Shown: one piece after another, positions 10,831-38,034 of the stretch
How the letters are laid out: every line of letters begins with the position of its first letter
Position numbering within the stretch: the stretch's first letter is position 1
Source: Deltaproteobacteria bacterium
Lineage (GTDB): Bacteria; Myxococcota; Myxococcia; SLRQ01
Assembly: GCA_029210625.1 (NCBI GenBank)
Contig: JARGFU010000002.1
Location: 227,290 to 291,289 of the forward strand
DNA length: 64,000 nucleotides
Reading direction: 5' to 3'
Translations under genes and position numbers: made by a program
The notes under the pieces: model-generated
Database searches by the model: none
Told to the model about the DNA's origin: nothing
The model's input: the letters and a program-made list of their open reading frames with translations, nothing else

Positions 10831-10834
10831 GGGA

Positions 10835-13018
10835 GTGATGCGCAAGCGAGCCGCCCGGCATCACGTCCTGCTCCTCCTCGGCCTGCTCGGCTTCGGCCTG
10901 GGCTTCGGCTGCGCCCGCTCCACCCTCGAGAAGTGGCCGCCCCGCGAGGACACCCACCGCGACGACAAGCTCGAGATCGACGGCAGCCTCTGCACCCGAG
11001 AGCCCGAGAGCCTGATCTTCCCGCTGCGGGTGCTCTTCATCGTCGACGGCTCGGAGTCGATGCGGATCACCGACCCGGTGGATCCGGTCACCCTCCAGAC
11101 CGGCCGCGAGATGGCGGTGGAGGCGACCTGGCAGGACCTGCTGGACCAGGGCATCGAGGGCGTGCGCATCGGGATCATGCGCTTCTCCGCCCAGGCCCAG
11201 AGCTACACGCCGGTGGACTACGACGGCGACACCGTGCCCGACTCCTACTTCACGGTGGACCCCCTGCAGCTCACCTCGGCGACCTCCCAGCTGCAGGACA
11301 CGGACCGGACCACGAACTACCTCAACGCCCTCTCCGAGGCCTACTTCGAGCTGCGCACCGAGATGCTCCAGGGCGACATCGAGTCGCTGCCCCTCTCGAA
11401 GTACGTGGTGATCTTCGTCTCGGACGGCATCCCGGACATCGACGATCAGGAGTCGCGGGAGAACTCCTCCGAGAACATCCTCGAGTCGGTGCTGCAGCTG
11501 CGGCGGCTCGCCGAGCTCTTCCACGTCGGCGACTTCTCCTTCCACACCGCCTACCTCTCGGCGGGGCAGGGGCCGGCCCTCGATCAGCCGGCCCAGCAGC
11601 TCCTGCGGCAGATGGCCGAGGTCGGCGGCGGCTCCTACCGCTCCTTCCCCAACGGCGAGGAGATCAACTTCCTCCACATCGATCTCTCGATCATCCGGCG
11701 GGTCTTCACCCTGCGGACCCTCGCGGTGATCAACGAGATGGCCCTCCTCGATCAGCACCAGAAGCCGGACATCGAGATGCCCCGCTTCGACTCCCTGGCC
11801 TACGTGGACCTCGACGGCAGCGGCGAGATGGACTGCGGCGAGCCGCTGGTCGACTCGGACGGCGACGGGCTCGCGGACCACGTCGAGCTGCGCATCGGCT
11901 CGGATCCCTTCCTCGCCGACACCGACGACGACGGCCTCTCCGATCGGGTGGAGTGGGACTTCCGGATGTCGGGGCGGGATCCCCTCGATCCCGACGACTC
12001 GAAGTGCTTCGTCCCCGAGCCCTGCCGCGACTGCGGGGCCGACGGCTCCTGCCCGGAATCGCCGGGCTACCCGGGTCCGGACGCGGGCGAGGCCCCCTGG
12101 TCCTGCGGCGCCGACGGGCTCTGCCCCGCCGACCCCGGCTACCCCGGCCCCGACGCCGGCGAGAACCCCGGCTCCTGCGGGGTGGACGGCCTCTGCCCGC
12201 CGGATCCGGGCTACCCCGGCCCCGACTCCGGCGAGGGCGACGGGATCTGCGACTGCCTGCGGGACGGCGACCGCGACGGCGTCTGCGACTGCGTGGGCGA
12301 CCCCGACCAGGTCTGCATGGACGCCGCCGGCCACGACTGCCTCGACACCGACCTCGACGGCTGGTGCGACTGCCCCGACCTCGACGTGGACGGCCGCTGC
12401 GACTGGGAGGACCGCGACGGCGATCGGCTGGGCGACTGCGAGGAGATCTTCTTCGGCTCGGCCAGCAACGGCACCGACTCCGACGCCGACGGGCTGCCCG
12501 ACACCCTCGAGGTGCGCTTCCGCACCAGCCCGGTGGAGGCGGACGAGGTCGGCGATCTGGACTTCGACCTGACGCCGAACGGGGTCGAGGTCGAGACCGC
12601 CACCGATCCCCTCTGCGACGACTCGGCCTTCCGCTCCGAGGCCGCCTACCGGTACCGGATCGAGGAGCTGGGACTGCAGGGCGCGAGCACCTGCTACGAC
12701 TTCCAGGTCAGCAACATCACCCTGGTCCCCACCCTGCAGAACCCGGCCGCCGACTTCCCCGGGAACGGATGGAACCGGGTGCTCGTCTACGCGGGCGAGG
12801 TGGCCTTCGACGATCCCGAGACCTTCGCGGCCTACCGGGTCGCCTGCGTGGAGGCGAGCTACGTCGCCGACGGCGACTACAAGAACCCGCCCTCGGGTCG
12901 CATGACGGTCGGCGGCGCCGATCCGGCAGAGGACCTCCTGACCAACCCCGAAGCCTGGAGAGGGAAATTCGTCGATGTGCGCGACTTCGATCCGGACCTG
13001 CACTGCCTCCGCCCCTAG
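10835..13018 (+). CDS. VWA lipoprotein with TSP3-type repeats and a Gly/Pro/Cys repeat insert
   Basis: 727 residues; GTG at 10835 or ATG at 10838 (GGGGAG just upstream). The lipobox GLGFGC gives Cys26. IDGSLCTREPESLIFPLRVL leads into the VWA domain with intact MIDAS D71-G-S-E-S and VVIFVSDGIPD. Calcium-type repeats (DSDGDGLAD, DTDDDGLSD, DSDADGLPD) flank three copies of a 24-residue repeat containing PGYPGPDAGE. A Cys/Asp-rich stretch (GDGICDCLRDGDRDGVCDC) follows. The C-terminus repeats the shared domain: CYDFQVSNITLVPT, NRVLVYAGE, VACVEASY. It is co-transcribed with the preceding paralogue, and its 3' end overlaps the next gene by 44 bases. Confidence 0.92.
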   Translation: MMRKRAARHHVLLLLGLLGFGLGFGCARSTLEKWPPREDTHRDDKLEIDGSLCTREPESLIFPLRVLFIVDGSESMRITDPVDPVTLQTGREMAVEATWQDLLDQGIEGVRIGIMRFSAQAQSYTPVDYDGDTVPDSYFTVDPLQLTSATSQLQDTDRTTNYLNALSEAYFELRTEMLQGDIESLPLSKYVVIFVSDGIPDIDDQESRENSSENILESVLQLRRLAELFHVGDFSFHTAYLSAGQGPALDQPAQQLLRQMAEVGGGSYRSFPNGEEINFLHIDLSIIRRVFTLRTLAVINEMALLDQHQKPDIEMPRFDSLAYVDLDGSGEMDCGEPLVDSDGDGLADHVELRIGSDPFLADTDDDGLSDRVEWDFRMSGRDPLDPDDSKCFVPEPCRDCGADGSCPESPGYPGPDAGEAPWSCGADGLCPADPGYPGPDAGENPGSCGVDGLCPPDPGYPGPDSGEGDGICDCLRDGDRDGVCDCVGDPDQVCMDAAGHDCLDTDLDGWCDCPDLDVDGRCDWEDRDGDRLGDCEEIFFGSASNGTDSDADGLPDTLEVRFRTSPVEADEVGDLDFDLTPNGVEVETATDPLCDDSAFRSEAAYRYRIEELGLQGASTCYDFQVSNITLVPTLQNPAADFPGNGWNRVLVYAGEVAFDDPETFAAYRVACVEASYVADGDYKNPPSGRMTVGGADPAEDLLTNPEAWRGKFVDVRDFDPDLHCLRP
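12032..12247 (+). repeat. Three tandem 72-bp repeats inside a VWA lipoprotein gene
   Basis: Three consecutive in-frame units of 24 codons, each beginning with Cys-Gly-[AV]-Asp-Gly and containing Pro-Gly-Tyr-Pro-Gly-Pro-Asp-[AS]-Gly-Glu. Units two and three are closest to each other; the first has diverged most. The repeat is Gly/Pro-rich with two Cys per unit, so it would make an extended, disulphide-pinned stalk. Unequal exchange could change its copy number. Confidence 0.85.
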
Positions 13019-25751: not shown

Positions 25752-27611
25752 TCAGGGGAGCGCCGCCGCCCGGTCGTCCGGAGGCCAGTAATAGACGTTC
25801 CAGCCCGAATCCGGCGGCTCGCAGGCCTTCGAGCGCAGCAGGCGGGGCTCGAGGCGGGCCTGGCGCGGCCAGCCCCGGTCGCCCAGGGCCGCCTCCCCGG
25901 GCGCCCCGACGGGCATCCGGGTCTCCTCCTCGATCCGATCGGGGCCCAGGCAGAGGCGGAGCATCCCCACCGCCCGGGCGCCCTCGAAGACCTCGAACCA
26001 GAGCAGCCGCGAGGCGCCGGCGGGCTCGGCGCGCAGGGCGATCCCGTCGTCCCGCGACTCGATCTGGATCTCGCCCAGGTGGATGGCGTCGGGGGGCTCG
26101 AGCGCCCGGGTGAAGCGGCCCACCTGGGTGGCATAGTTCCCGGCGTTCGGGTCGCCGAGGGAGGCCTCGACGACGGCGAGCTCCACCCTCGCGGCCTCGG
26201 CCGCGTCCCCGAGGCGGTGGAGGCACTGGGCGAGGGTGTCCCGGACGTGGGGGGCGTTCCCCGAGCGCTGGACCGCGATCTGGGCACCGTCCCGGGCCGA
26301 GCGGAGCTGCCCCCGGTCCGCGCGCTCGTCGATGCAGATCATCCAGGCCAGGGCGTTCGTCGACTCGGCGTCGACGCTCTCGAGGGCGGCCACCTCGCGC
26401 AGCAGCGAGAAGTCCCCCCGCAGGCCGGCGTCGATGGCGGCGGCGGTGCCGGCCAGCCAGAGCGCGACGAGGGAGAGCGCCAGGGCGCGGATCCAGCCGG
26501 GGGTCGGGTGGCCCGGCTCGATGGAGCGCGGGCTCCAGGAGAGGAGCGCGGCGGCGAGGGCGCCCGCGAGGAAGCCACCCAGGTGCGCCGCCCAGTCGAT
26601 GATGGGCACCAGGAGCGGGGGCACGATGCTCACGATGGCCAGGAACCACCAGGAGAACTTCCTGATCCGGAAGCCGGCCGGGATGGTGCGTGGGTGCCGG
26701 AGGCTCAGGACGGCGTAGGCGCCGATGATTCCGTAGATGCAGCCGGAGGAGCCCACCGAGAAGCGCTCGGTGAAGAAGTAGGCGGAGAGCGACGCGCCCG
26801 CCAGGCCGGCCACCAGGTAGGCGACCACGAAGCGCCAGGTCCCCATCACCCGCTCGGCCATGTTGCCGAGCATGTAGAAGAAGAAGACGTTCAGGCCGTA
26901 GTGCCAGAAGGGGCCGTGGAGCAGGTTGGCGGTGATGAGCCGGTAGTACTCCCCCCCGCGGACCAGCAGCCCGTGCCCGGCGCCCATCCGCAGGAAGACG
27001 GTGGCGTGATCGACACCGTCGACGAGGAGCTGGAAGGCGTAGACCACCGTCAGCAGGATCACGAGGGACATCGTGGCCCGGGTGGGCCGGGCGATGGTCG
27101 CGCGCATCCGGTCGCTCTCGATGGCGAGGGTGGCCAGGATGGCGGGGCCGTCCGGGTGGGAGTGGAGGCGCTCGCGCAGCAGCTCCCCGAAGCGAGGAAG
27201 ATCGGTGGGCGTGGCGAAGTCCCGCAGGCGGAAGAAGAAGGTCCGGTGAGCGGACTCGATGATGAGGAAGCCCTCGGGCGGGGCGAAGCGCAGATCCACC
27301 GTCCGAAGGTCCCGGAAGGGGACCTTCATCGAGCGGCGGGAGTCGGCCTTGATGGGCAGCTCCACCTCCTCGGCGCCCAGGGCGATGAAGGGGGGGGTCC
27401 GGGGCAGGCGCAGCAGGCGCAGCGCGAGGATCGAGCCGCCGACCGTCAGGAAGGCGCCCAGGCTGATCACCGTGTGGGCGAGATCCTCCAGGAGGCTCCC
27501 GGTGGAGAAGCTGCCAGAGATCGCGCTGATGACCAGCGCCGCGGCCATCAGCGCGATGACGATGCCCCGGGTCCAGAAGGGGGGCTTCCGCAGCTGGAAG
27601 CGCTCGGTCAT
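25752..27611 (-). CDS. Rhomboid-family intramembrane serine protease with N- and C-terminal extensions
   Basis: 619 residues. Two N-terminal helices flank a soluble segment (about 75-155) resembling a PH-like membrane-protein insert. The rhomboid core spans about 175-370: LLHGPFWHYGLNVFFFYMLG supplies the His/Asn motif, GSSGCIYG near 285 the catalytic Ser, and HLGGFLAGAL near 342 the catalytic His. The C-terminal about 230 residues have a TPR-like stretch and an unassigned beta-rich domain ending in WNVYYWPPDD. The gene starts 9 bases after the last antiporter gene, so it is expressed with the Mrp operon. It may process an operon product or another lipoprotein (inference). Confidence 0.92.
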   Translation of the reverse strand: MTERFQLRKPPFWTRGIVIALMAAALVISAISGSFSTGSLLEDLAHTVISLGAFLTVGGSILALRLLRLPRTPPFIALGAEEVELPIKADSRRSMKVPFRDLRTVDLRFAPPEGFLIIESAHRTFFFRLRDFATPTDLPRFGELLRERLHSHPDGPAILATLAIESDRMRATIARPTRATMSLVILLTVVYAFQLLVDGVDHATVFLRMGAGHGLLVRGGEYYRLITANLLHGPFWHYGLNVFFFYMLGNMAERVMGTWRFVVAYLVAGLAGASLSAYFFTERFSVGSSGCIYGIIGAYAVLSLRHPRTIPAGFRIRKFSWWFLAIVSIVPPLLVPIIDWAAHLGGFLAGALAAALLSWSPRSIEPGHPTPGWIRALALSLVALWLAGTAAAIDAGLRGDFSLLREVAALESVDAESTNALAWMICIDERADRGQLRSARDGAQIAVQRSGNAPHVRDTLAQCLHRLGDAAEAARVELAVVEASLGDPNAGNYATQVGRFTRALEPPDAIHLGEIQIESRDDGIALRAEPAGASRLLWFEVFEGARAVGMLRLCLGPDRIEEETRMPVGAPGEAALGDRGWPRQARLEPRLLRSKACEPPDSGWNVYYWPPDDRAAALP

Positions 27612-27620
27612 CCGCAGATT

Positions 27621-29432
27621 CTAGGACCCGGCGAAGAGGAAGGCCGCCAGCAATCCGAAGACGGCCAGGATCACCCAGAGGGCGTTGCCCACCGGGAAGC
27701 GGTAGCGGTTCTCGGTGTAGAGGCCGTCGTCCTCCTTGACCGGTTCGGGCAGGAGGATGCCCCGGCCGAAGAGCCGCTCGGAGCCCCGCAGGGGGTTCTG
27801 GAGGAAGGTGATCCCGGCCCGGGCGAGGGAGGCCATCCACTCGCCGATCCCCCCCTGCGCCGCGAAGAGGCCGCGGGAGAGGGCCAGCACCGGCCGCGGC
27901 AGGAGCTTGCGATAGATCCAGTCGGTGTCCATCGAGACCGTCGCCTCGCCGTGGAGCTTGTCGAAGAGCAGCCAGAAGGAGAGGGCGGTGCCCACCAGCA
28001 GCTGGATCGACTGCATCAGGTGGTGGGTGGTGTAGGGGTGGTACTCGGTGCCGAAGGGGAGGATCCGGTAGAGCACCTCGTACCCGAAGGCGTGGCTGCC
28101 GAAGGAGGGCAGCCCGAAGAAGGTGCAGAGCGTGGCTCCGATCCCCATGGCCACGTACATGTTCTTCGGCAGGGGGCGGATCACCTCGTGCTTGCGGTCG
28201 GTGGGCGAGATGAAGGTGAACCAGAGCAGCTTCAGGCCGGTGTGGAGGAAGGTGCCGACGCTGGCCAGGGTGAGCCCCAGCTCGGCCCAGCCCCAGCCGC
28301 CCTGGGCCGCCGCCGTGATGACGATGGACTTCGAGATGAAGCCGTTGAAGAGCGGGACGCCGGAGATGGAGGCCGCGCCGACGGCGTAGAGGCCGAGCAC
28401 CCAGGGCATGCTCTTGTGGAGGCCGCCGAGCTCGGTGAGCTTCTCCTTGCCGGTGGCGTAGACCACCGCGCCGGCGCCCATGAAGAGCAGGGACTTGTAG
28501 AGGATGTGGCTGAAGGCGTGGGCGCTGCCGCCATCGAGGGCCATCTTCGTCCCCATCCCCGCGGCGGCGACCATGTAACCGACCTGCGAGATGATGTGGT
28601 ACGCGAGCAGGCGCCGGATGTTGTTCTCCAGCACCGCGTAGACCACGCCGTAGAGGGCCATGATCACGCCGCCGTAGAGCAGGATCTCCCAGCCCGGGAA
28701 GAGGGCGATGAGGGCGAAGACCGAGGTCTTGGTGGTGAAGGCCGAGAGGAAGACCGAGCCGGTGACCGAGCCCTCGCCGTAGGCGTCGGGGAGCCAGGCG
28801 CCCAGGGGCGGGATGGCGGCGTTGATGGCGACCCCGAAGAGGATCAGCCAGGCGGCGATCCCGCTGCCCGGCGGGAGGGCCACGATGGCCGTGCCGTGGC
28901 CCGCGGCGATCCAGCCGACGACCCCCATCAGGAGGACCGAGCCGCCGAGGCCGTGTACGGCGAGGTAGCGCAGGCCCGCGCGCCGGGCCTCCGGCGTCCC
29001 CCGGCCGAAGACCAGGAGGGAGGAGGAGAGGGCCATCATCTCCCAGAAGAGGACGAAGGCCACGAGGTCCCCGGAGAAGGTCACGCCCAGGGCGCCGCCG
29101 GCGTAGACCCAGGCCGCCGAGTTCTGGGCCGGGTCCTCCACGTGGAGGGCGTAGACGCTGCCGATGAGCGCCATGAGGGCGAAGATGGTGCCGAAGAGGA
29201 GGCGCAGCGCGTCGACGTGGAGGAGGTCCAGCGTGTAGCCCATCCACTCCAGGTCGACCGACCCGGGTGCGGCGGCGTGGAAGGAGAGGACCTGCGCGAG
29301 GATCAGCGCCGGGACGAGGAGCTGGACGACCTTCCGCGCGGTGCCGGAGAGCACCGCGAGGAGGGGGGCCGCGGCGATGAGCCACACGCCAGGAGGCAGG
29401 AGCTCCCGGAGGGCACCGAGGACCTCACTCAT
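27621..29432 (-). CDS. NuoL/MrpA-D-like proton-conducting membrane subunit lacking the mid-membrane Lys
   Basis: 603 residues with about 14-16 hydrophobic helices of the NuoL/M/N (proton_antipo_M) family. The helix-5 Glu is kept (VLFWEMMALSSSLLVF) and the helix-8 Lys is present (AFTTKTSVFALIAL). Where relatives have GIKAALFPLHAWLPDA, this protein reads AINAAIPPLGAWLPDAYGEG: the Lys is Asn and the His is Gly. The C-terminus has an additional amphipathic region and a final helix, as in NuoL and MrpA. It overlaps the preceding 100-residue gene by 8 bases. It may stand in for the antiporter part of a split MrpA. Reduced or altered ion conduction through this subunit is inferred. Confidence 0.9.
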   Translation of the reverse strand: MSEVLGALRELLPPGVWLIAAAPLLAVLSGTARKVVQLLVPALILAQVLSFHAAAPGSVDLEWMGYTLDLLHVDALRLLFGTIFALMALIGSVYALHVEDPAQNSAAWVYAGGALGVTFSGDLVAFVLFWEMMALSSSLLVFGRGTPEARRAGLRYLAVHGLGGSVLLMGVVGWIAAGHGTAIVALPPGSGIAAWLILFGVAINAAIPPLGAWLPDAYGEGSVTGSVFLSAFTTKTSVFALIALFPGWEILLYGGVIMALYGVVYAVLENNIRRLLAYHIISQVGYMVAAAGMGTKMALDGGSAHAFSHILYKSLLFMGAGAVVYATGKEKLTELGGLHKSMPWVLGLYAVGAASISGVPLFNGFISKSIVITAAAQGGWGWAELGLTLASVGTFLHTGLKLLWFTFISPTDRKHEVIRPLPKNMYVAMGIGATLCTFFGLPSFGSHAFGYEVLYRILPFGTEYHPYTTHHLMQSIQLLVGTALSFWLLFDKLHGEATVSMDTDWIYRKLLPRPVLALSRGLFAAQGGIGEWMASLARAGITFLQNPLRGSERLFGRGILLPEPVKEDDGLYTENRYRFPVGNALWVILAVFGLLAAFLFAGS

Positions 29433-29727
29433 GGGGCTCCCCCTCTCCTGCGTCTTCCTCGTCCGGTGGGTCCTCGCCGTAGTAGCCCTCGGGCCTCTGC
29501 AGCCAGGCGTGGCCCAGCCACTTGCTGCCGTAGACGATCACCGCGCAGCCGCCGAAGCCCATCAGGAGGAACCAGACGTCCTTGAGCACCGGGGTCGTGT
29601 TCCACCAGTGGGTCACCCACTCCGGATCGTCGAGGTGGTGATCGTGCACCCCGGCGTGCAGGCCGATGGCCACCGCGAGCACCAGGGCGGCGCCGAGGAG
29701 GAGCCCCTTCTTGAGGCCCGGGCTCAT
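29425..29727 (-). CDS. Small membrane protein of the antiporter operon (unknown)
   Basis: 100 residues from the ATG at 29727, overlapping the upstream antiporter subunit by 4 bases and the downstream one by 8. There are two hydrophobic helices (LLLGAALVLAVAIGLHAG and VWFLLMGFGGCAVIVYGSKW) around a His/Asp-rich loop (HDHHLDDPEW). The tail is acidic (DPPDEEDAGEGEP). It is not one of the standard MrpA-G subunits as far as I can tell. Tight coupling on both sides argues that it is a stoichiometric part of the complex, perhaps bridging the two NuoL/M-like proteins. The His-rich loop could bind metal. Confidence 0.8.
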   Translation of the reverse strand: MSPGLKKGLLLGAALVLAVAIGLHAGVHDHHLDDPEWVTHWWNTTPVLKDVWFLLMGFGGCAVIVYGSKWLGHAWLQRPEGYYGEDPPDEEDAGEGEPHE

Positions 29728-31220
29728 CCGCCACCTCCCAGGAGGAGGAAGTTCGCCATCACCTGCCGGGCGAAGCTCCAGAAGTGGGGGCCCAGATCCG
29801 GGGCGATCCCCAGCAGCAGGCAGGCCGCCGCGGTGAAGGCCGGGGGTCCCACCAGGAGCAGGGGCGCCTCGTCGTACTTCGGGTAGCGCTCGCTCGTGCG
29901 GAAGAACGCGTCGAAGATGATCGGGAAGAAGTAGAGGATGTTCAGCAGGGCGCTGGTGACCAGCACCGCGAGGAAGATCCACTGATCCGCCTCGATGGCC
30001 CCGCCGGCCAGCCACCACTTCGAGACGAAGCCGGGGAGGGGCGGGATGCCGGCCAGGCCCACCGCGCCCACGGCGAAGGCCCCCATCGTCAGGGGCATGG
30101 CCTTGCCGATGCCCCTCAGGTCGCGGATCTCGGTGACGTGGCAGTGGGCGTAGATGGCGCCGGCGCAGAAGAAGAGGGTGATCTTCATGAAGGCGTGGCC
30201 GGCGATGTGCATCGTCGCCCCGAACATGCTGGTGGGCGTGAGGAGGGCCGCGCCGAGGACGATGTAGGAGAGCTGGGAGATCGTGGAGTAGGCCAGCCGC
30301 CGCTTGAGGTTCTGCTGGGTCAGGGCGATCACCGAGGCGGTCACGATCGTGAAGCCGGCGAGGGTGGCCAGGGGGAGGGCGACGCCCAGCTCCTTCAGGG
30401 TCTCGGGGCCGAAGACGTAGCCGACCACCCGGAGGGTGCCGAAGACCCCGGCCTTCACCACCGCCACCGCGTGCAGCAGGGCGCTGACCGGGGTGGGGGC
30501 GATCATCGCCGCCGGCAGCCAGGCGTGCAGCGGCATGATGCCCGCCTTCACCCCGACCCCGAGCATGAAGAGGACGAAGAGGATGGTCAGGGTGGTGGGG
30601 CTCGCGACCTTCGTGGAGAGGAAGCCCCCGGCCACGAAGGGCTCACCGCCGACCAGGCTCTGGGACCAGCCCACGGCCAGGAGGAGGCAGAGGCCCGCCG
30701 AGAGGGTGTAGGCGAGGTACTTGCGGCCGACCTTCAGGGCCTCCTCGGTGCGCTTGTGCACCACCAGGGGGTAGGTCGAGATCGTCAGGACCTCGTAGAA
30801 GATGAAGAAGGTCAGCGGGTTGCCGGCGAAGGCCAGGCCGGTGGCCGCGCCGACGCACATGGCGAAGGCCGCGAAGTAGCCGGTCTGGTGGGGCGCCTCC
30901 ACGGCGCGCATGTAGCCGATGGAGTAGAAGCTGGTGACCACCCAGAGGATGGAGGAGACGCAGGCGAAGACCATCCCCAGCGGGTCGGTCCGCAGCACCA
31001 GGTCGAAGCCCGAGGCCAGGGGCAGCAGGACGACCTCGAAGGTCCCGCCCTCGAGCACCTCCGGGACCATGGAGAGGACCAGGGACGCCTGGAGGAAGGC
31101 CGCCCCGAGGGTCCAGCCCTCGCGCAGGTTGGGGCGGCGGCCCGAGAGCAGGATCAGCACCGCCGCGAGGGGGGTGATGGCCAGGATCAGGGCCGGGCGG
31201 AGTTGCCAGAGGGTGTCCAT
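29724..31220 (-). CDS. NuoM/MrpD-like proton-conducting membrane subunit
   Basis: 498 residues with the NuoL/M/N fold. Key residues are present: Glu in FFIFYEVLTISTYPLVV (helix 5), Lys and His in GVKAGIMPLHAWLPAAM (helix 7), Lys in AVAVVKAGVFGTLRV (helix 8), and Lys in GFVSKWWLAGGA (helix 12). It overlaps the 100-residue gene by 4 bases and lies 3 bases after MrpD. It is one of three antiporter-like subunits in the operon. Canonical Mrp systems have two (MrpA and MrpD), so this is either the extra one or the functional counterpart of MrpA. Confidence 0.92.
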   Translation of the reverse strand: MDTLWQLRPALILAITPLAAVLILLSGRRPNLREGWTLGAAFLQASLVLSMVPEVLEGGTFEVVLLPLASGFDLVLRTDPLGMVFACVSSILWVVTSFYSIGYMRAVEAPHQTGYFAAFAMCVGAATGLAFAGNPLTFFIFYEVLTISTYPLVVHKRTEEALKVGRKYLAYTLSAGLCLLLAVGWSQSLVGGEPFVAGGFLSTKVASPTTLTILFVLFMLGVGVKAGIMPLHAWLPAAMIAPTPVSALLHAVAVVKAGVFGTLRVVGYVFGPETLKELGVALPLATLAGFTIVTASVIALTQQNLKRRLAYSTISQLSYIVLGAALLTPTSMFGATMHIAGHAFMKITLFFCAGAIYAHCHVTEIRDLRGIGKAMPLTMGAFAVGAVGLAGIPPLPGFVSKWWLAGGAIEADQWIFLAVLVTSALLNILYFFPIIFDAFFRTSERYPKYDEAPLLLVGPPAFTAAACLLLGIAPDLGPHFWSFARQVMANFLLLGGGG

Positions 31221-31223
31221 GGA

Positions 31224-32753
31224 TCAGGGAAGGATCAGCCCCAGGGCCGGGCGGACGATGGGGCCGATGACGTGCTCGACGATGGGGAAGGAGCCGAGGC
31301 CGAGGATCAGGATGGCGAGGGTGGCGACGCCCACCGGCAAGAGCATCGTGCCGGGCAGGGGCTTGATCTTGCTGACCCAGGCCTCGGTGGGCGTGGGGTC
31401 CACGCGCTCCTTGAAGAAGGCTCGCTCGAGGATCCGGAAGAAGTAGATCGCGTTGAGCAGGGAGCTGGCGAGGATGATGATCACGAAGGGCCAGCGCCCC
31501 CCCTCGACCGCGCCGAGGACCAGGTACCACTTCGAGAAGAAGCCGGCGGTCGGCGGGATACCCACCATCGAGAGGGAGGCCACGCCGAAGGCGGCCATGG
31601 TGAAGGGCAGGTGGCGGCCGAGGCCGTCGAAGCGGCGGATGTCCCGGTGGCCCAGGCGGGTGACGATGGCGCCGGTGACCATGAAGAGCGCGCACTTCAT
31701 GACCGCGTGGTTGATCATGTGGAGCACGCCGCCGGTCAGGCCGTCGTCGTTGGCCAGGGAGAAGCCCAGGAGCACGTAGCCGATCTGGGAGACGCTGGAG
31801 TAGGCCAGCATCCGCTTCAGATCCGTCTGGGCGATGGCCAGCAGGGAGCCGATGATGATCGCCAGCGCGGAGAGCCAGCCCATCAGGTCGAGGACCGCGG
31901 AGTAGTCGCCGGCCGGGCCCACCCGGTAGAGGGTGTAGAGCACCCGGAAGATGCCGTAGGCGCCCATCTTGATGCCCACCGCGCCCATCAGGGCGGTGGT
32001 CACGTTGGGCGAGTAGGCGTAGGCGTCGGGGAGCCAGGCGTGGAGCGGGAAGAGGGCGGCCTTGATGCCGAAGCCGGTCACCAGGAAGGCCAGGGCCACG
32101 AGCAGGGCGCGCTGGGCCTCCGGGCCCTCGAGGAGGGCCACCTGCCGGGCGACGTCGACGAAGTTCAGGGAGCCGGTGAGGCCGTAGAGGTAGGCGAGGC
32201 CGAGCAGGTAGAAGGCCGCGCCCAGGGTCCCGATGATGACGTAGCGGAAGGCCGCGAAGGGGGCCTCGGGGTCGCCCACCGCCACCAGGGCGTAGCCGGT
32301 GAGGGCGATGACCTCCAGGAAGACGTAGAGGTTGAAGAGGTCCCCGGTCATCACGAAGCCGCTCATCCCCATCGTGAAGAGGAGGTAGAGCGAATAGAAG
32401 AAGTGGGCGCGGGACTTGAGCCGCTCCGGCAGGCCGCGGTGCGAGAAGAGCAGCACCAGCCAGGAGAGGAGGTTCACCAGCAGGACCATCACCGCCGAGA
32501 GGTTGTCGACCCGCAGCTCGATGCCCCAGGGGGGAGGCCAGCCCCCGAGGTGATGGGAGAGGGCGCCCTCGCCCGCCTCGGTGAGGGCGAAGACCAGATG
32601 CGCCGTGCGCAGGGAGGCGGCCACCGCGAGGGTGGAGAAGAGCAGGGCGGTCGGGAGCACCGCCCGCGCCGAGAGGCGGCGGACCAGGGGGAGCGCCAGC
32701 GCGCCGACGAAGAGCGCGACGATGATCCACAGGGGTGCGGCCGGCTGGATCAC
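31224..32753 (-). CDS. mnhD: Na+/H+ antiporter subunit D (MrpD/MnhD)
   Basis: 509 residues from a GTG at 32753 that overlaps the MrpC stop (GTGA). The NuoL/M/N family hallmarks are complete: YVFLEVIALTGYALVAV, GIKAALFPLHAWLPDAY, GAVGIKMGAYGIFRVLY, LKRMLAYSSVSQIGYVLLG and GFFSKWYLVLGA. It follows MrpC directly, the canonical Mrp order, which is why I assign D to this copy and not to its two paralogues. It is the integral inner-membrane channel half of the antiporter. Confidence 0.93.
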   Translation of the reverse strand: MIQPAAPLWIIVALFVGALALPLVRRLSARAVLPTALLFSTLAVAASLRTAHLVFALTEAGEGALSHHLGGWPPPWGIELRVDNLSAVMVLLVNLLSWLVLLFSHRGLPERLKSRAHFFYSLYLLFTMGMSGFVMTGDLFNLYVFLEVIALTGYALVAVGDPEAPFAAFRYVIIGTLGAAFYLLGLAYLYGLTGSLNFVDVARQVALLEGPEAQRALLVALAFLVTGFGIKAALFPLHAWLPDAYAYSPNVTTALMGAVGIKMGAYGIFRVLYTLYRVGPAGDYSAVLDLMGWLSALAIIIGSLLAIAQTDLKRMLAYSSVSQIGYVLLGFSLANDDGLTGGVLHMINHAVMKCALFMVTGAIVTRLGHRDIRRFDGLGRHLPFTMAAFGVASLSMVGIPPTAGFFSKWYLVLGAVEGGRWPFVIIILASSLLNAIYFFRILERAFFKERVDPTPTEAWVSKIKPLPGTMLLPVGVATLAILILGLGSFPIVEHVIGPIVRPALGLILP

Positions 32754-33118
32754 CGCAGCTTCTCCAGGATCTCGTCTTCCTCGAGGGTGCCGTGGCGGCG
32801 GTGGATCCGGATGAGGAGGGCCAGGGCCACTCCGGTGGTCGCCACGCCCACCACGATGGCGGTGAGCATCAGGGCCTGCGGCAGGGGGTTGGCGTAGGCG
32901 TCGAGCTCCGGGCCGATCGACTCCTCGAGCACCGGCAGGATGCCGCCCTTCTTGGGGGAGAAGGTCAGGTAGAAGAGGATCACCCCCACCTGGAGGATGT
33001 TCATCCCCATGAGCTTCTTCAGGAGGTTGCGCTTGGCCATCATCCCGTAGACGCCCACCAACATCAGGACCGAGATGATCCAGTAGTTGTAGCTGGCGAA
33101 GATGCGCTCGAAGTCCAT
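32750..33118 (-). CDS. mnhC: Na+/H+ antiporter subunit C (MrpC/MnhC, NuoK-like)
   Basis: 122 residues with three hydrophobic helices: YWIISVLMLVGVYGMM, MNILQVGVILFYLTF and ALMLTAIVVGVATTGVALAL. This is the NuoK/MrpC pattern. MGMNILQVGVILFY matches the conserved helix-2 segment. The length is usual for MrpC. The gene overlaps mnhD by 4 bases and lies 6 bases after mnhB. Confidence 0.92.
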   Translation of the reverse strand: MDFERIFASYNYWIISVLMLVGVYGMMAKRNLLKKLMGMNILQVGVILFYLTFSPKKGGILPVLEESIGPELDAYANPLPQALMLTAIVVGVATTGVALALLIRIHRRHGTLEEDEILEKLR

Positions 33119-33124
33119 GGCTCT

Positions 33125-33589
33125 CTAGAGGCCGCCCCGGCTGCGGGCGACGAGATCGTCGAAGAGGATGACCATCACGCCCATCACCGCGAGGGTGACG
33201 CCGACCTCGATCCCGATGGTGCCGAGGGCGCGGGCGGCGGCGACGTGCTCACCGTGGGGCATGCCCGGGATGCCCGAGACCGCGGCGTAGTCGAGGAAGG
33301 CCGTGCCCGGGGGCAGGAGGAGGCCGAGGATGCCGATGGCCAGGTAGAGGGAGACCCCCAGGATGGCGAGGTGGGTGGCCCGGCGGGTGGTCAGGCCCTT
33401 GAGGCCGTCCGGGTAGCCCTCGGTGATGCGGAAGATCAGGAAGCTGCCGGCGAGGGTGGCGCCGGCCTGGAAGCCGCCGCCCGGGCTGTAGTGGCCGTGG
33501 AAGAGCACGTAGAGGGCGTAGAGCTGCAGCAGCGGCGCCTGCACCCGGCCCGCCAGGCTCACGACCACCGAGTCGTAGCGGCCCATCAT
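33125..33589 (-). CDS. mnhB: Na+/H+ antiporter subunit B (MrpB/MnhB)
   Basis: 154 residues. YALYVLFHGHYSPGGGFQAG is the MnhB signature (HGHxxPGGGFQxG). Four hydrophobic helices end in GVTLAVMGVMVILFDDL. Length and order (before C) are canonical. It overlaps the upstream 94-residue gene by 4 bases. Confidence 0.95.
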   Translation of the reverse strand: MMGRYDSVVVSLAGRVQAPLLQLYALYVLFHGHYSPGGGFQAGATLAGSFLIFRITEGYPDGLKGLTTRRATHLAILGVSLYLAIGILGLLLPPGTAFLDYAAVSGIPGMPHGEHVAAARALGTIGIEVGVTLAVMGVMVILFDDLVARSRGGL

Positions 33590-33870
33590 GGGTCACGCTC
33601 CCGGTGCTCGGGCCAGAGGATCAGCGCCACCGCCAGGCCGGCGATGAGGATCACCGAGGTCTCGAAGAGGGTGTCGAAGCCCCGGTAGTCGGCGAGCACG
33701 GCGGTCACCATGTTCTTGGCGTGGGTCTCGTCGTAGGCCTTCTCGATGTAGCGGGGCGAGACCCGCTGCATGGTGACGGCCTCCGGATCGCCGAAGTCGG
33801 GCAGCGCCGGCGCGCTGTAGGCGAGGAGGCCGCCGGCGAAGGCCAGGGCGAGGAAGGCGCTCCACTTCAT
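33586..33870 (-). CDS. MbhE/MrpA C-terminal-like membrane subunit
   Basis: 94 residues with a helix at each end. The central segment AKNMVTAVLADYRGFDTLFE is the signature of the MbhE family and of the extreme C-terminus of long MrpA proteins. So the module fused to MrpA in many bacteria is a separate gene here, as in archaeal Mbh/Mbs-type clusters. It overlaps the genes on both sides by 4 bases. Confidence 0.88.
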   Translation of the reverse strand: MKWSAFLALAFAGGLLAYSAPALPDFGDPEAVTMQRVSPRYIEKAYDETHAKNMVTAVLADYRGFDTLFETSVILIAGLAVALILWPEHRERDP

Positions 33871-34112
33871 TCTCGGCTCTCCCTTCCGGTGCGGAAGAGG
33901 GCTGCGAAGAAGACCACCGCCGAGACCGCCGCGCCGATCATCGCCTCGGTGAAGGCCACGTCCACCGCGGCCATGGCCGCGTAGACGATGCAGGAGAAGA
34001 AGGAGAAGCCCGCGAAGACGATGGTCGCCGCCGCGAGATCCTTCAGGGAGAGGGCCGTGACCGCGAGGATCACCAGGATCGGCAGGAGCAGGGCGTCGAG
34101 GAGCAGGCTCAT
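33867..34112 (-). CDS. MbhD/DUF4040-like antiporter subunit
   Basis: 81 residues from the ATG at 34112, overlapping mnhG by 4 bases. There are three closely packed helices; VDVAFTEAMIGAAVSAVVFF is the conserved AFTEAxxGA segment of MbhD/DUF4040, the domain that in canonical MrpA precedes the MbhE-like tail. It provides the second piece of a split MrpA. A longer start in the same frame is possible but would add a charged, non-membrane leader. Confidence 0.88.
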   Translation of the reverse strand: MSLLLDALLLPILVILAVTALSLKDLAAATIVFAGFSFFSCIVYAAMAAVDVAFTEAMIGAAVSAVVFFAALFRTGRESRE

Positions 34113-34501
34113 GCCTCGCCCTCCTCTTCCTCGCGATCCTCCTGCCGCAGCCGGCGCCTCCTCGCCCGGCGCTCCTCGGCCTGCTTCAGGGTCATGGTGC
34201 CCTTGCGGGTCCACATGGGGAGCCCGGCCTTGCAGGCGGCCCGCGCCAGGGCGTGGGTGGCGGTCGGGTTGGCCAGCAGGATGAAGCCCTCGACCAGGAG
34301 GATCTTCAGGGCCAGGAGGGTGGGGCCGGCCAGGACGGCGAGGCCGGTGAGGATCAGGGCGGCCCCCAGGGTGTCCGCCTTCCCCGCGGGGTGGAGGCGC
34401 ATGTAGAAGTCGGGCAGGCGCACCAGCCCGAAGCCTCCCACGAAGAGGAAGAAGAGGCCGAGGCCCAGGAAGAGCGTGGCGATCATCTCCCAGACGCTCA
34501 A
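34109..34501 (-). CDS. mnhG: Na+/H+ antiporter subunit G (MrpG/MnhG)
   Basis: 130 residues. The helix LFLGLGLFFLFVGGFGLVRL and FYMRLHPAGKADTLGAALIL carry the MnhG signature (RLPDFYxRLHxxxKADTLG). Three helices are followed by a basic tail (RRARRRRLRQEDREEEE), longer than in many MrpG proteins. It overlaps mnhF and the MbhD-like gene by 4 bases each. Confidence 0.95.
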   Translation of the reverse strand: MSVWEMIATLFLGLGLFFLFVGGFGLVRLPDFYMRLHPAGKADTLGAALILTGLAVLAGPTLLALKILLVEGFILLANPTATHALARAACKAGLPMWTRKGTMTLKQAEERRARRRRLRQEDREEEEGEA

Positions 34502-34794
34502 GGCTCGCGCTCCGGGTTGTGGCCCCCCTGCCAGACCGAGGACTCGAGGTACTTGGCCGTCACCAGGGTGCCGATGATCAGCGCCAGGCCGTAGCCCAGC
34601 GAGATGTCGATGTACATGTCCGCCTGATCGGAGAGGAAGCCCATCAGGACCAGCAGGACGATGGTCTTGGTGCCCAGGGTGCCGGCGCCGAGCGCCCGGT
34701 CGAAGGCGGTGGGGCCCCGCACCACCCGGTAGAGGGGCAGGAAGAGGAGGGCCGCCAGGATCAGGGCGGCGCCGTGGAGGACGGTGTCCATCAC
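34498..34794 (-). CDS. mnhF: Na+/H+ antiporter subunit F (MrpF/MnhF)
   Basis: 98 residues and three helices. LYRVVRGPTAFDRALGAGTL is the MnhF signature (RxxxGPTxxDRxxA), followed by the LMGFLSDQADMYIDISLGY region. Length and gene order (E-F-G) are canonical. It overlaps mnhE and mnhG by 4 bases. Confidence 0.95.
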   Translation of the reverse strand: MMDTVLHGAALILAALLFLPLYRVVRGPTAFDRALGAGTLGTKTIVLLVLMGFLSDQADMYIDISLGYGLALIIGTLVTAKYLESSVWQGGHNPEREP

Positions 34795-35372
34795 CGGTCC
34801 TCCTTCCGGCGCCGGGGCGGCGCCTCGGCCTCGAGCCGGGCGATGGCCGCGGCGGCCTCCTTGCCGATCTCCCGCCCGAAGGCGGCCTTCACCCGCCGGC
34901 CCATCGTGCCGCTCTCGATGTCGAGGGCCACCGGGACGTCGATGCTGTGCACGATGAAGCGCTCGTCGACCACGTCGATGGTCACGGTTCCAGGGGTGAG
35001 GGTGATCGAGTTGGCGAGGACCACCTGGGCCAGCTCGGACTTCAGATCCGGGCCGACGTTGGTGATCTGGGGATCCCAGCCCGCGCGCGGCCCGAGGACC
35101 AGCTTGAGCACGTAGAGGTTCGCCTTGATGATCTCCACGAAGAGCCAGGGAAGATAGAGGGCCACGTGGTGCCAGCGGATGAAGGTCAGGTAGAAGCCCG
35201 GCCCCCCGATGCCGTCGGCCGAGCGCAGGTGCCTGGCCGAGAGCAGGGTCACGCCGGCAGCGCAGATGGCCCCCATGATGAGGTGGGTGGCGTCGAGCAT
35301 CCCGGAGAGGATCACCCAGAAGGTGAACAGTCCCCCGAAGATGATCAGGTGGTGACGTAGGCGTCGTTTCAT
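34791..35372 (-). CDS. mnhE: Na+/H+ antiporter subunit E (MrpE/MnhE), first gene of the antiporter operon
   Basis: 193 residues from the ATG at 35372, chosen because residues 1-5 (MKRRL) give a normal basic end before the first helix; an in-frame start at 35417 adds 15 unlikely residues. FGGLFTFWVILSGMLDATHL and LPWLFVEIIKANLYVLKLVL match MnhE. The C-terminal half contains SITLTPGTVTIDV and the conserved FIVHSIDVP segment. An Arg-rich tail follows. It heads the leftward operon E-F-G-MbhD-MbhE-B-C-D plus two extra NuoL/M-like subunits. Confidence 0.94.
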   Translation of the reverse strand: MKRRLRHHLIIFGGLFTFWVILSGMLDATHLIMGAICAAGVTLLSARHLRSADGIGGPGFYLTFIRWHHVALYLPWLFVEIIKANLYVLKLVLGPRAGWDPQITNVGPDLKSELAQVVLANSITLTPGTVTIDVVDERFIVHSIDVPVALDIESGTMGRRVKAAFGREIGKEAAAAIARLEAEAPPRRRKEDR

Positions 35373-35526
35373 CGAGCTCGAGCTCCCTCGCCCTGCGCGA
35401 CCGCCGGGCGAGGCCAATCAGCTATAGCACGAGGTCCAAGGTCGAGGTTCGAGCTCGTTTGGACGCAGTGCGGCAAGCATGACGCCAGGCGTCAGAGGGA
35501 CCAGATTGGGGGTGTCGGTCCTTCGC

Positions 35527-35578: not shown

Positions 35579-36070
35579 ATCTCTCCGGAAACCATCACGT
35601 GGATCTGGCTCATCGCGGGTGGGGTGCTCGCAGTCTCCGAGATCTGGGTGCCGGGAGGGGTGGTCATCTTCCTGGGCAGCGCGGGCATGGCCGTCGCGGG
35701 GCTCCGCGCCCTCGGGCTGATCGAGAGCCTGCCGGTCTCGATCGGCGCGTGGCTGGCGCTCTCGGTGGCCTCGGTGGTGGGGCTGCGCGGCCTGGTGAAG
35801 CGCTTCTTCCCGGCGGAGAGCTACTTCCAGTCCACCGACGAGGACGTGGAGGCCTACGGCACGGTCGTGGAGACGATCGCCGAGGTGAGCGAGAGCAGCG
35901 ACGAGGGACGCATCCGCTTCGGCGGCACCACCTGGGCGGCCCGCTCCGTCCGGGGGGTCCTCCCCGCGGGGACGCCCTGCCGGATCGTGCACCGGGACAA
36001 CCTGGTCTGGGTGGTGGAGCCCATCAGCGAGCCCCTGCTCGCGGGCTCCTCCACTGACGAAGAGAAGTAA
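35579..36070 (+). CDS. NfeD-like membrane protein with no standard start codon
   Basis: About 163 residues if started at the ATC at 35579, which follows AGGGGG by 6 bases. SPETITWIWLIAGGVLAVSE is the family's first helix. It would be cut in half if the first standard start (GTG at 35624) were used. The in-frame TGA at 35528 leaves no ATG, GTG or TTG between it and 35624; the only other near-cognate option is CTG at 35561. A second hydrophobic region, GGVVIFLGSAGMAVAGL, and a C-terminal OB-fold domain (TVVETIAEVSESSDEGRIRF to NLVWVVEPI) follow. NfeD proteins act with SPFH proteins, encoded just downstream. Confidence 0.78.
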   Translation: MSPETITWIWLIAGGVLAVSEIWVPGGVVIFLGSAGMAVAGLRALGLIESLPVSIGAWLALSVASVVGLRGLVKRFFPAESYFQSTDEDVEAYGTVVETIAEVSESSDEGRIRFGGTTWAARSVRGVLPAGTPCRIVHRDNLVWVVEPISEPLLAGSSTDEEK

Positions 36071-36096
36071 CCACGGCACCACTTCTGGTGCCGCGG
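36071..36096 (+). other. Perfect stem-loop between nfeD and the first SPFH gene
   Basis: CGGCACCA (36074-36081) pairs with TGGTGCCG (36086-36093) around a CTTC loop. Two more pairs (CC with GG) lie beyond one mismatch. It starts directly after the NfeD stop and ends 29 bases before the SPFH start. No U-tract follows, so an attenuator or mRNA-processing stem is likelier than a terminator. Confidence 0.7.
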
Positions 36097-36125
36097 CCTC
36101 GAATCGAGAAAGGGGTCTCCCTCCC

Positions 36126-37058
36126 ATGTGGACAACCTTGACGATCACCCTGGTCATCCTCGGGTTCATCGGATTCAAGACGCTCAAGGTCGTTCCGATG
36201 CGCGAGGCCTTCGTGAAGGAGCGCTTCGGGAAGTTCACCGGTGTCCTGCGGCCGGGGCTGCACATCCTCGTCCCCTTCATGGACAAGGTCGCCTACCGCC
36301 ACGAGATGCGGGAGCAGGTCCTCGACATCCCGGCGCAGAGCTGCATCACGCGGGACAACATCCAGGTCGAGGTGGACGGCCTCGTCTACCTGAAGGTGAT
36401 GGACCCGGCCAAGGCGAGCTACGGCATCGAGAACTACCGCCGCGCCAGCGTGAACCTGGCCCAGACGACGATGCGCGCCGAGATCGGCAAGCTCACCCTC
36501 GACAACACCTTCTCCGAGCGCGAGGCGGTGAACGAGCGGATCGTGCAGGAGATCGACAAGGCCTCGGACCCCTGGGGCGTGAAGGTGCTGCGCTACGAGA
36601 TCCGTAACATCACGCCCAGCTACCACGTCATCGAGACCCTCGAGAAGCAGATGGAGGCCGAGCGGCACAAGCGGGCGAAGATCACCTCCGCCACCGCCGA
36701 GAAGGAGTCCCTCACCGCCATCTCCGAGGGCACCCGCCAGGAGGCGATCAACCTCTCCGAGGGTGACCGGCAGCGGCGGATCAACGAGGCGAAGGGGCGG
36801 GCCGAGGAGATCAAGCTCCTGGCGCACGCCACCGCGGAGGGCATCCGCCGGGTGGCCGAGGCCATCCAGAAGCCCGGCGGCGACGTCGCCCTGAAGATGC
36901 GGCTGGTCGAGCGCTTCATCGAGGAGCTCGGCGCGGTGATGAAGGAGAGCGACGTCACGGTGGTCCCCGCCGAGCTCGCCAACATCAAGGGCTTCTTCGA
37001 GGGGCTCACCCGGGTCAGCACCCAGATCGGAGACGGAGGGTCCTCCGCCGGCCGCTAG
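36126..37058 (+). CDS. SPFH/stomatin-type membrane protein (QmcA-like)
   Basis: 310 residues. An N-terminal membrane helix (LTITLVILGFIGFKTL) is followed by the SPFH domain: PMREAFVKERFGKFTGVLRP, GLHILVPFMDKVAYRH and DIPAQSCITRDNIQVEVDG. A coiled-coil region with EGDRQRRINEAKGRAEEIKL precedes the C-terminal segment. These are hallmarks of bacterial stomatin/paraslipin proteins, which form ring-like membrane microdomain assemblies with NfeD. It lies between nfeD and a second SPFH paralogue. Confidence 0.93.
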   Translation: MWTTLTITLVILGFIGFKTLKVVPMREAFVKERFGKFTGVLRPGLHILVPFMDKVAYRHEMREQVLDIPAQSCITRDNIQVEVDGLVYLKVMDPAKASYGIENYRRASVNLAQTTMRAEIGKLTLDNTFSEREAVNERIVQEIDKASDPWGVKVLRYEIRNITPSYHVIETLEKQMEAERHKRAKITSATAEKESLTAISEGTRQEAINLSEGDRQRRINEAKGRAEEIKLLAHATAEGIRRVAEAIQKPGGDVALKMRLVERFIEELGAVMKESDVTVVPAELANIKGFFEGLTRVSTQIGDGGSSAGR

Positions 37059-37110
37059 AGGCCGGTCCGCGGACACCTCCCTCCTCTCTCATCGAATACG
37101 GAGTCTTCTC

Positions 37111-38034
37111 ATGGACATCGCCATCAACCTCACGATCTGGGGCCTCTTCTCCCTCTACCTGGTCTACAAGCTCATCCGCTCCATCCGCTTCGTTCCCAAC
37201 CGCTACGAGTACATCGTCGAGCGCCTCGGCAAGTACCGGAAGACCCTCGGCGCGGGCCCCCACCTGCTGCTGCCCTTCTTCGACAAGGTCTCCTTCATCC
37301 GGGACCTCAAGGAGCAGACCATCGCGGTCCCGCCGCAGGAGTGCTTCACCGAGGACAACGTGAAGGTCCACGTCGACGGTGTGATGTACATCTCGGTGAA
37401 CGACTCGGTGAAGGCCAGCTACGGCGTCACCGACTACATCTTCGCCGCCTCGCAGCTGGCGCAGACCACCACCCGCTCGATCATCGGCACCCTCACCCTC
37501 GACCAGACCTTCGAGGAGCGGGATCTGATCTCGGTGGGCGTGGTGAAGGCCCTCACCGAGGCGGGCCACTCGTGGGGCATCACCGTGCACCGCTACGAGG
37601 TGAAGAACATCGTGACCCCCGAGACGGTGCGCAACGCCATGGAGCAGCAGGTCACCGCCGAGCGCGAGCGCCGGGCCACCGTCGCCCGGGCCGAGGGCGA
37701 GAAGCAGACCCGCATCAACCGCTCCGAGGGCGAGAAGGCCCAGGCGGTCAACAAGTCCGAGGGCGAGATGCAGCGGCGGATCAACGAGGCCCAGGGCCGG
37801 GCCGAGGCCATCCTCTCCATCGCCTCCGCCACCGCCGAGTCCATCGAGAAGATCGCCGCGGTGGTCTCCCTGCCCGGTGGCGTCAAGGCGGTCCGCCTGC
37901 AGATGCTCGAGAAGTACGTCGACCAGCTCTCCAACCTGGCCCGTCCCGACACCCGCGTGCTCCTGCCCGCGGATCTGACCAAACCCGACGCCCTCTACGC
38001 AGCCCTCGGGCTCAGCGAGGACGACCTGAAGTAG
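37111..38034 (+). CDS. SPFH/stomatin-type membrane protein, second paralogue
   Basis: 307 residues. It is similar in plan to the preceding gene: a helix at the N-terminus (LTIWGLFSLYLVYKL), then VPNRYEYIVERLGKYRKTLG, GPHLLLPFFDKVSFIRDLKE and VPPQECFTEDNVKVHVDGVM. The coiled coil includes EGEKAQAVNKSEGEMQRRIN. The two paralogues probably form a hetero-oligomer, like HflK/HflC, though neither carries HflC-specific features I can identify. It lies 52 bases after the first SPFH gene. Confidence 0.93.
   Translation: MDIAINLTIWGLFSLYLVYKLIRSIRFVPNRYEYIVERLGKYRKTLGAGPHLLLPFFDKVSFIRDLKEQTIAVPPQECFTEDNVKVHVDGVMYISVNDSVKASYGVTDYIFAASQLAQTTTRSIIGTLTLDQTFEERDLISVGVVKALTEAGHSWGITVHRYEVKNIVTPETVRNAMEQQVTAERERRATVARAEGEKQTRINRSEGEKAQAVNKSEGEMQRRINEAQGRAEAILSIASATAESIEKIAAVVSLPGGVKAVRLQMLEKYVDQLSNLARPDTRVLLPADLTKPDALYAALGLSEDDLK

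Follow-up and report, generated by a model that had tools for sequence, protein, structure and literature searches.

In this work, we analysed a 64,000-nucleotide window of the Deltaproteobacteria bacterium genome (contig JARGFU010000002.1, positions 227,290 to 291,289) and focused on a minus-strand operon (27621-35372) of eleven frames, in the order MrpE-F-G-MbhD-MbhE-B-C-D1-D2-X-D3, where D1, D2 and D3 are antiporter-like subunits and X is a protein of 100 residues. The reading that we favour, with a probability of about 0.75, is that the operon encodes a Mrp-type cation/proton antiporter whose MrpA is split, MbhD and MbhE supplying its C-terminal part and D2-X-D3 its NuoL-like N-terminal part, the latter trio being a portable distal module. 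We documented the gene content of the operon, the orthology of its cassette, the co-occurrence of X with D3, the selection acting on X and the residue pattern of the large subunits, from which we infer a single complex, its cation/proton exchange, the location of X and the division of the role of NuoL between D2 and D3 plus X.

Gene content of the operon and redox partners

All eleven frames were present in the order given by the original prediction and, X excepted, all matched Pfam families, three of them PF00361 (Proton_antipo_M). The predicted interval (25752-35372) had to be shortened, as it included a separate rhomboid gene (25752-27611) in addition to the Mrp part. Likewise, the frames had been described as all overlapping, which holds for eight of the ten junctions (4-8 bases); gaps of 6 and 3 bases lie between B and C and between D1 and D2, respectively. 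The features are as follows.

34791..35372, minus strand: MrpE/MnhE subunit (PF01899, E=2.7e-30; ATG start, TTG at 35417 possible)
34498..34794, minus strand: MrpF subunit (PF04066, E=3.1e-10; top PDB match 6cfw_B)
34109..34501, minus strand: MrpG (PhaG/MnhG) subunit (PF03334, E=3.5e-25; top PDB match 6u8y_C)
33867..34112, minus strand: MbhD, separate counterpart of the first part of the MrpA C-terminal region (PF13244, E=1.2e-13)
33586..33870, minus strand: MbhE, separate counterpart of the MrpA end (PF20501, E=9.4e-10)
33125..33589, minus strand: MrpB/MnhB subunit (PF04039, E=5.2e-22)
32750..33118, minus strand: MrpC, NuoK-like (Oxidored_q2, PF00420, E=1.3e-25; aligned to 6z16_C)
31224..32753, minus strand: D1, MrpD-like antiporter-like subunit (PF00361, E=2.9e-66; D1 tree group)
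29724..31220, minus strand: D2, cassette antiporter-like subunit (PF00361, E=9.4e-56; D2 tree group)
29425..29727, minus strand: X, 100-residue companion of D3 (two predicted helices, 3-32 and 46-76)
27621..29432, minus strand: D3, distal-type antiporter-like subunit with a predicted MrpA/NuoL-like C-terminal brace (NF009310, 624.8 bits; nearest MrpA 6z16_A)
25752..27611, minus strand: rhomboid-family membrane protein (PF01694, E=1.5e-27), judged outside the complex

According to Pfam, Mrp (CPA3) subunits B, C, D, E, F and G are encoded together with both halves of MrpA, the C-terminal half being represented by MbhD plus MbhE and the N-terminal half being present only as D2-X-D3. D3 itself scored above the curated cut-off (564 bits) of the NCBIfam model NF009310 (PRK12668.1, antiporter subunit D). 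The layout is not that of Mrp group 1 or 2, since there are three PF00361 proteins, MbhD and MbhE are free and no single MrpA is found; judging from this domain content, the operon is therefore a Mrp-type variant. In the genome (6.1 Mb, 64 contigs), ten Proton_antipo_M matches were detected, three inside the window and the rest on contigs C15 and C38, where they sit in apparently ordinary nuo clusters with NuoL.

Could the complex of the operon nevertheless carry a redox arm? The same cassette is accompanied by such an arm in relatives, i.e. in the complex I operons of Desulfovibrionales and rhizobia, and the small subunits resemble those of Mbh/Mbs at least as much as those of Mrp. The adjacency of redox subunits in relatives, which the original prediction had set against its claim that the complex is not a respiratory one, was thus observed in complex I operons; it was not observed in Mrp-type operons, among which no NuoB/C/D/H-type gene was recognised. 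Within the window the claim stood: no NuoB/C/D/H-like subunit was found in the operon or in the scanned flanking genes (protein kinase, FeMo-cofactor-domain protein, rhomboid, cyclase, NfeD, two SPFH proteins, RNB-domain nuclease, TonB receptor, epimerase, MutS2 and others without a family). The check elsewhere in the genome, which had been suggested, yielded no more than two NuoB-type genes. Contig C38 carries both, and one belongs to a nuo operon that encodes L, M and N of its own. Three of the eight related genomes tested, all drafts, had no NuoB-type gene. Taken together, the lack of a redox gene nearby, the location of the NuoB-type genes and the relatives devoid of NuoB make a redox arm very unlikely; the operon most likely works without one. 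A second nuo cluster of the window genome (C15, 38000-57900) contains NuoE, F, J, K, L, M and N and gave no NuoB match.

The D2-X-D3 cassette in Mrp-type and complex I operons

The trio D2-X-D3 was found in two settings. In the first one, it ends a window-like Mrp operon in 11 Bacillota loci and in two genomes of the window's phylum; two Bacillota Mrp-type loci have fusions (MbhD/E or MbhD/E/B), and a twelfth Bacillota locus ends before the Mrp small-subunit part. In the second one, it lies inside complex I operons, i.e. NuoA-B-C-D-H-I-J-K-D2-X-D3-M-N in Desulfonauticus/Desulfovibrio (loci L026, L027 and L031; partial in L028 and L029) and nuoJ-nuoK-D2-X-D3-M-N-A-B-C-D-E-F-G, with I and H nearby, in Rhizobium lentis, whose D2, X and D3 are annotated as 'antiporter subunit D family protein', an 84-residue hypothetical protein and 'Na(+)/H(+) antiporter subunit D', respectively. 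The arrangement in Phyllobacterium zundukense and on pSymA of Sinorhizobium meliloti 1021 agrees with that of R. lentis, an X homologue standing between D2 and D3 in all three rhizobial loci. Among loci gathered with the D3 family model, NuoM directly follows D3 in 28 of 30 cases in Thermodesulfobacteriota (phylum of L031) versus none of 13 in the phylum of L030.

A phylogenetic tree of the antiporter-like proteins was inferred by a quick method without bootstrap and contains several long branches; it includes 77 of 88 rows, the 11 dropped being near-copies, two partial rows of L028 (a locus kept in the residue counts and left out of the tree and of the brace-length table) and one odd frame. 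All D2 (20 rows) formed one group and all D3 (21 rows) another, each with a Shimodaira-Hasegawa-like approximate likelihood ratio test (SH-aLRT) value of 100; in both groups, Mrp members were mixed with complex I members. D1 formed a group of 12 rows (SH-aLRT 98). NuoM and NuoN of the cassette-bearing complex I operons grouped with those of the window genome itself. These gene orders and groupings are most simply explained by D2-X-D3 having moved as a unit, which takes the place of NuoL in complex I and of the NuoL-like half of MrpA in Mrp. As the trio occurs inside complex I operons of Desulfovibrionales and rhizobia, X is, on this genomic evidence, tied to D2/D3 and not to Mrp as such.

The association of X with D3 was assessed in three sets of loci. 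X lies between D2 and D3 in all 20 first loci (17 from the D3 scan and three from other genomes of the window's phylum), adjoins D3 in 43 of 47 further loci gathered by the D3 family model, and stands beside D3 in 57/57 additional loci, mostly lower-scoring among the listed D3 places; two of the sampled loci, L057 and L049, probably share their genomes with L030 and L025. The four loci without X (L061-L064, from three genomes) hold D3-like genes, alone or in other arrangements, that score 304-349 bits against the cut-off of 564 and are, by this measure, lower-scoring paralogues. X was present at every cassette-type D3 of the three sets, whereas its absence from syntenic operons had been named beforehand as the finding that would count against it, and the proposal of the 100-residue protein as a candidate new subunit was borne out. 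In a separate search of 247 Thermodesulfobacteriota genomes, D3 was found in 112, X in 111 and both in 110 (Fisher p=2.6e-67, kinship ignored), the three exceptions being an X located 127 bases from a contig end, a D3 starting at contig base 5 and a D3 fragment. At E 1e-90, 16 of 299 genomes in the phylum of L030 contained D3, with 12 scoring above the cut-off, and in the window's phylum it was detected in 4 of 195 genomes; in both of these phyla D3 is rarer than in Thermodesulfobacteriota. Several genomes contain two D3-X pairs (L149 and L150 in G659, side by side on contig C13; L105 and L153 in G739; others). In two further loci (L095, G226:C41; L096, G259:C43), D3-like genes with the transmembrane helix (TM) 7 lysine and without X form part of a pair or of a set of four consecutive antiporter-like genes, and no further Mrp/Nuo gene was recognised there.

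X has the features of a genuine gene. Its frame overlaps D2 by 4 bases and D3 by 8, is preceded by a Shine-Dalgarno-like sequence and has a coding-like third-codon-position G+C of 0.92 (0.98 in its neighbours). Homologues of 80-110 residues occupy the same gene position in four phyla and align over two helices. A profile built from 12 Bacillota X recovered, at E<=1.9e-6, all 12 distinct X that had not been used (from the window, rhizobia, Desulfovibrionales and the window's phylum), the window X being found at E=3.3e-9 and the first other open reading frame among 3283 at E=0.033. Non-synonymous diversity was below synonymous diversity (pN<pS) in 12/12 close pairs, with dN/dS of 0.04-0.28 in the nine computable pairs, i.e. 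X is under purifying selection. A chance frame was ruled out by these positionally conserved homologues, profile matches and selection. When the window X alone served as query against 97 related genomes, three genomes were hit at E up to 0.01, one being the window's own, and nothing credible was found beyond the window; this single-sequence search was weak because X diverges fast, and the profile search later succeeded. No Pfam family matched more than 2 of 21 members of the X set and no NCBIfam family more than 6 of 21, the latter matches being weak (best E=0.00063) and involving a family of membrane proteins that we consider unrelated. Neither Foldseek nor PDB profile searches gave a usable result for X.

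Within the family, conservation is highest at a lysine that ends helix 2 (53 of 56 non-redundant X in one sample, 48 of 57 in the second), in a GF.GC helix stretch and in a well-kept C-terminal E-D-Y-Y-type motif. Charges suggest that both ends of X are probably cytoplasmic. The HDHHLDD stretch (residues 28-34 of the window X) was considered as a metal or haem site and rejected as not general; loop histidines are frequent in a single column (H in 40/56 non-redundant X).

Putative roles of D2, D3 and X

D1 and D2 retain the TM5 glutamate and the TM7, TM8 and TM12 lysines. In the window D3, Asn204 replaces the TM7 lysine and all other key residues are retained. Asparagine occupies this position in 120 of 124 cassette D3s: in the first sample Asn or Ser was found in 64 of 67, the three with Lys coming from genomes of the window's phylum, and in the second Asn in 57 of 57. 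The D3 model (mean predicted local distance difference test (pLDDT) 76.7) is nearest to MrpA of solved Mrp complexes (6z16_A), NuoL being next. In the C-terminal region of the model, a helix (469-493) is followed by an amphipathic stretch that is poorly defined (504-555) and by a final helix (579-602), an arrangement like that of the NuoL/MrpA brace. By a rough measure, 75-78 residues separate the YR motif from the last helix in 33 of 35 complex I-type D3s and 55-86 in 27 of 28 Mrp-type D3s.

These patterns led us to a tentative proposal, in which the portable module divides the jobs of NuoL/MrpA. D1 corresponds to the ordinary MrpD. D2 would be a complete proton-translocating subunit doing the pumping of the MrpA N-terminal half, and D3, devoid of the TM7 lysine, would be a terminal subunit whose amphipathic stretch and last helix resemble the NuoL/MrpA brace. 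X would be a small two-helix subunit on the D2/D3 pair, most likely at the D2-D3 contact, needed for assembly or coupling, so that D3 and X together would close and brace the end of the arm. Since the same cassette replaces NuoL in Desulfovibrionales complex I and in rhizobial green complex I, it would be a portable distal module of the membrane arm. By homology with Mrp, the cation would exit via the E-F-G-B-C-MbhD-MbhE side, protons would enter along D1-D2-D3 and charge changes at the subunit contacts would couple the two movements. The number of lysine-complete subunits would stay at two in the Mrp version and three in the complex I version, as in canonical complexes.

An alternative is that D3 is one more full pump and that the cassette raises the ion stoichiometry, as published work proposes for green complex I and Complex_I_3. 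D3 retains the TM5 Glu, TM8 Lys, TM11 His/Lys and TM12 Lys, and it is counted as a pump in the literature (PMC9040806); the TM7 lysine that is lost from nearly all cassette D3s is, however, termed absolutely conserved and essential in antiporter-like subunits (PMC7419157). We consider this alternative possible, though rather unlikely.

Regarding X, an assembly factor or regulator outside the finished complex would fit a protein that is small, variable in length and without a conserved catalytic residue, and whose conserved positions (the helix 2 lysine, GF.GC and E-D-Y-Y) could form a transient binding surface. Its fixed position before D3 and its copy number, about one to one with D3 even in genomes with two cassettes, are rather as expected of a stoichiometric subunit, and this role appears unlikely. 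We also considered that X might supply in trans the lysine lost from D3 TM7. In the first sample, every Asn/Ser D3 with an aligned X had a lysine at or beside X position 69, and two of the three cassette D3s with Lys were paired with an X missing the position-69 lysine. The 57-locus sample largely refuted this idea, Lys69 being missing in nine of 57 X (E2, R2, G, N, L, A, S) with D3 Asn in 57/57; moreover, the sequences suggest that the X lysine lies towards the cytoplasmic helix end. Such a complementation is now highly improbable.

Some observations weigh against the antiporter reading and the division of roles proposed here. D3 could still be proton-conducting, as its TM5 Glu, TM8 Lys and TM12 Lys are preserved and the TM7 Lys persists in 3 of 124 cassette D3s. 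The branching of D2/D3 with MrpA/NuoL instead of MrpD is weakly supported (82). Confidence in the X model is moderate (pLDDT 76.8, predicted template modelling score 0.42). A reverse profile built from seven complex I-type X found the other X and detected the window's only at E=0.22, so the window X is, in terms of sequence, a divergent member of its family. Finally, both histidines proposed as cation ligands in MrpC of solved Mrp (PMC7419157) are missing from MrpC in 14/14 rows of the alignment, and the cation and the coupling may therefore differ from canonical Mrp. Mbh and Mbs likewise differ at these positions, and, unlike the MrpC histidines, the MrpG His and the MbhD Glu (DVAFTEA) are kept. 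In place of the two histidines of canonical Mrp, MrpC of this operon type, the window's included, shows a conserved Gln and, after it, non-polar or small residues; the cation site may differ accordingly.

X is a conserved protein without a family, nearly one to one with D3, in antiporters and complex I of four phyla, including that of S. meliloti. With the cassette, nature provides an exchange of parts between an antiporter and a respiratory enzyme, so that the function of the arm's distal end can be tested in either setting. The finding also bears on the open question of whether complexes with extra antiporter-like subunits move more ions. If the division of roles proved true, the 'four-pump' green complex I (N, M, D2) and the 'three-pump' Mrp (D1, D2) would have the ordinary number of complete pumps, contrary to the additional ion translocation proposed in the literature, and a subunit would have been overlooked in the complex I of many sulphate-reducing bacteria and nodulating rhizobia.

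Concerning neighbouring genes, the rhomboid-domain gene lies directly downstream of D3 in the same direction and is possibly co-transcribed; no rhomboid gene was seen in related operons. An NfeD-like and two SPFH/band-7 genes (35624-38034), divergent, adjoin the Mrp operon, and a divergent slipin and NfeD gene (9057-11245 in locus L033) adjoin the cassette-bearing nuo operon of R. lentis. The link that these neighbours suggested was rejected, as beyond the window and R. lentis they were not seen in the wide loci.

Comparison with known systems

As in canonical Mrp (CPA3) of groups 1-2 (6z16, 7qru, 7d3u), E, F, G, B, C, D and both MrpA halves are represented in the window operon, which differs by the splitting of MrpA into MbhD, MbhE and D2-X-D3, one extra large subunit, X, and MrpC without the two histidines. 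The departure from canonical Mrp that had been predicted, i.e. three large subunits and a split MrpA, was thus observed; irregular and three-large-subunit Mrp nevertheless have precedents. Group 3/anaerobe Mrp operons (Ito et al. 2017, PMC5703873) share an irregular content, with duplicated mrpD or mrpB-like genes, and neither X nor a cassette replacing NuoL is described in the part of that article available to us. The three-large-subunit Mrp of 'Ca. Nitrospira alkalitolerans' (PMC7784846), compared by description only, has like the window operon two NuoM/NuoL-like genes directly after mrpD, and a small gene goes unmentioned in the accessible text. These two kinds of Mrp, as well as green complex I, are thus already published. 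The open-access text searched, which did not include the original green complex I paper or Chadwick et al. 2018, made no mention of X or of a cassette shared by Mrp and complex I.

Pyrococcus Mbh/Mbs (6cfw, 6u8y) has, like the window operon, free-standing MbhD and MbhE and gave the best PDB sequence matches for D2, D3, C, F, G and MbhD; the window operon is distinguished by the lack of hydrogenase-like subunits, by more large subunits and by X. In green complex I, two MrpD-like proteins take the place of NuoL (PMC9040806, PMC7415380; X is not mentioned in the portions of these articles consulted). It differs from the window operon in having a redox arm and NuoM/NuoN, and shares with it an orthologous D2-X-D3, the D2 and D3 orthologues being found in tandem (SH-aLRT 100; R. 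lentis order).

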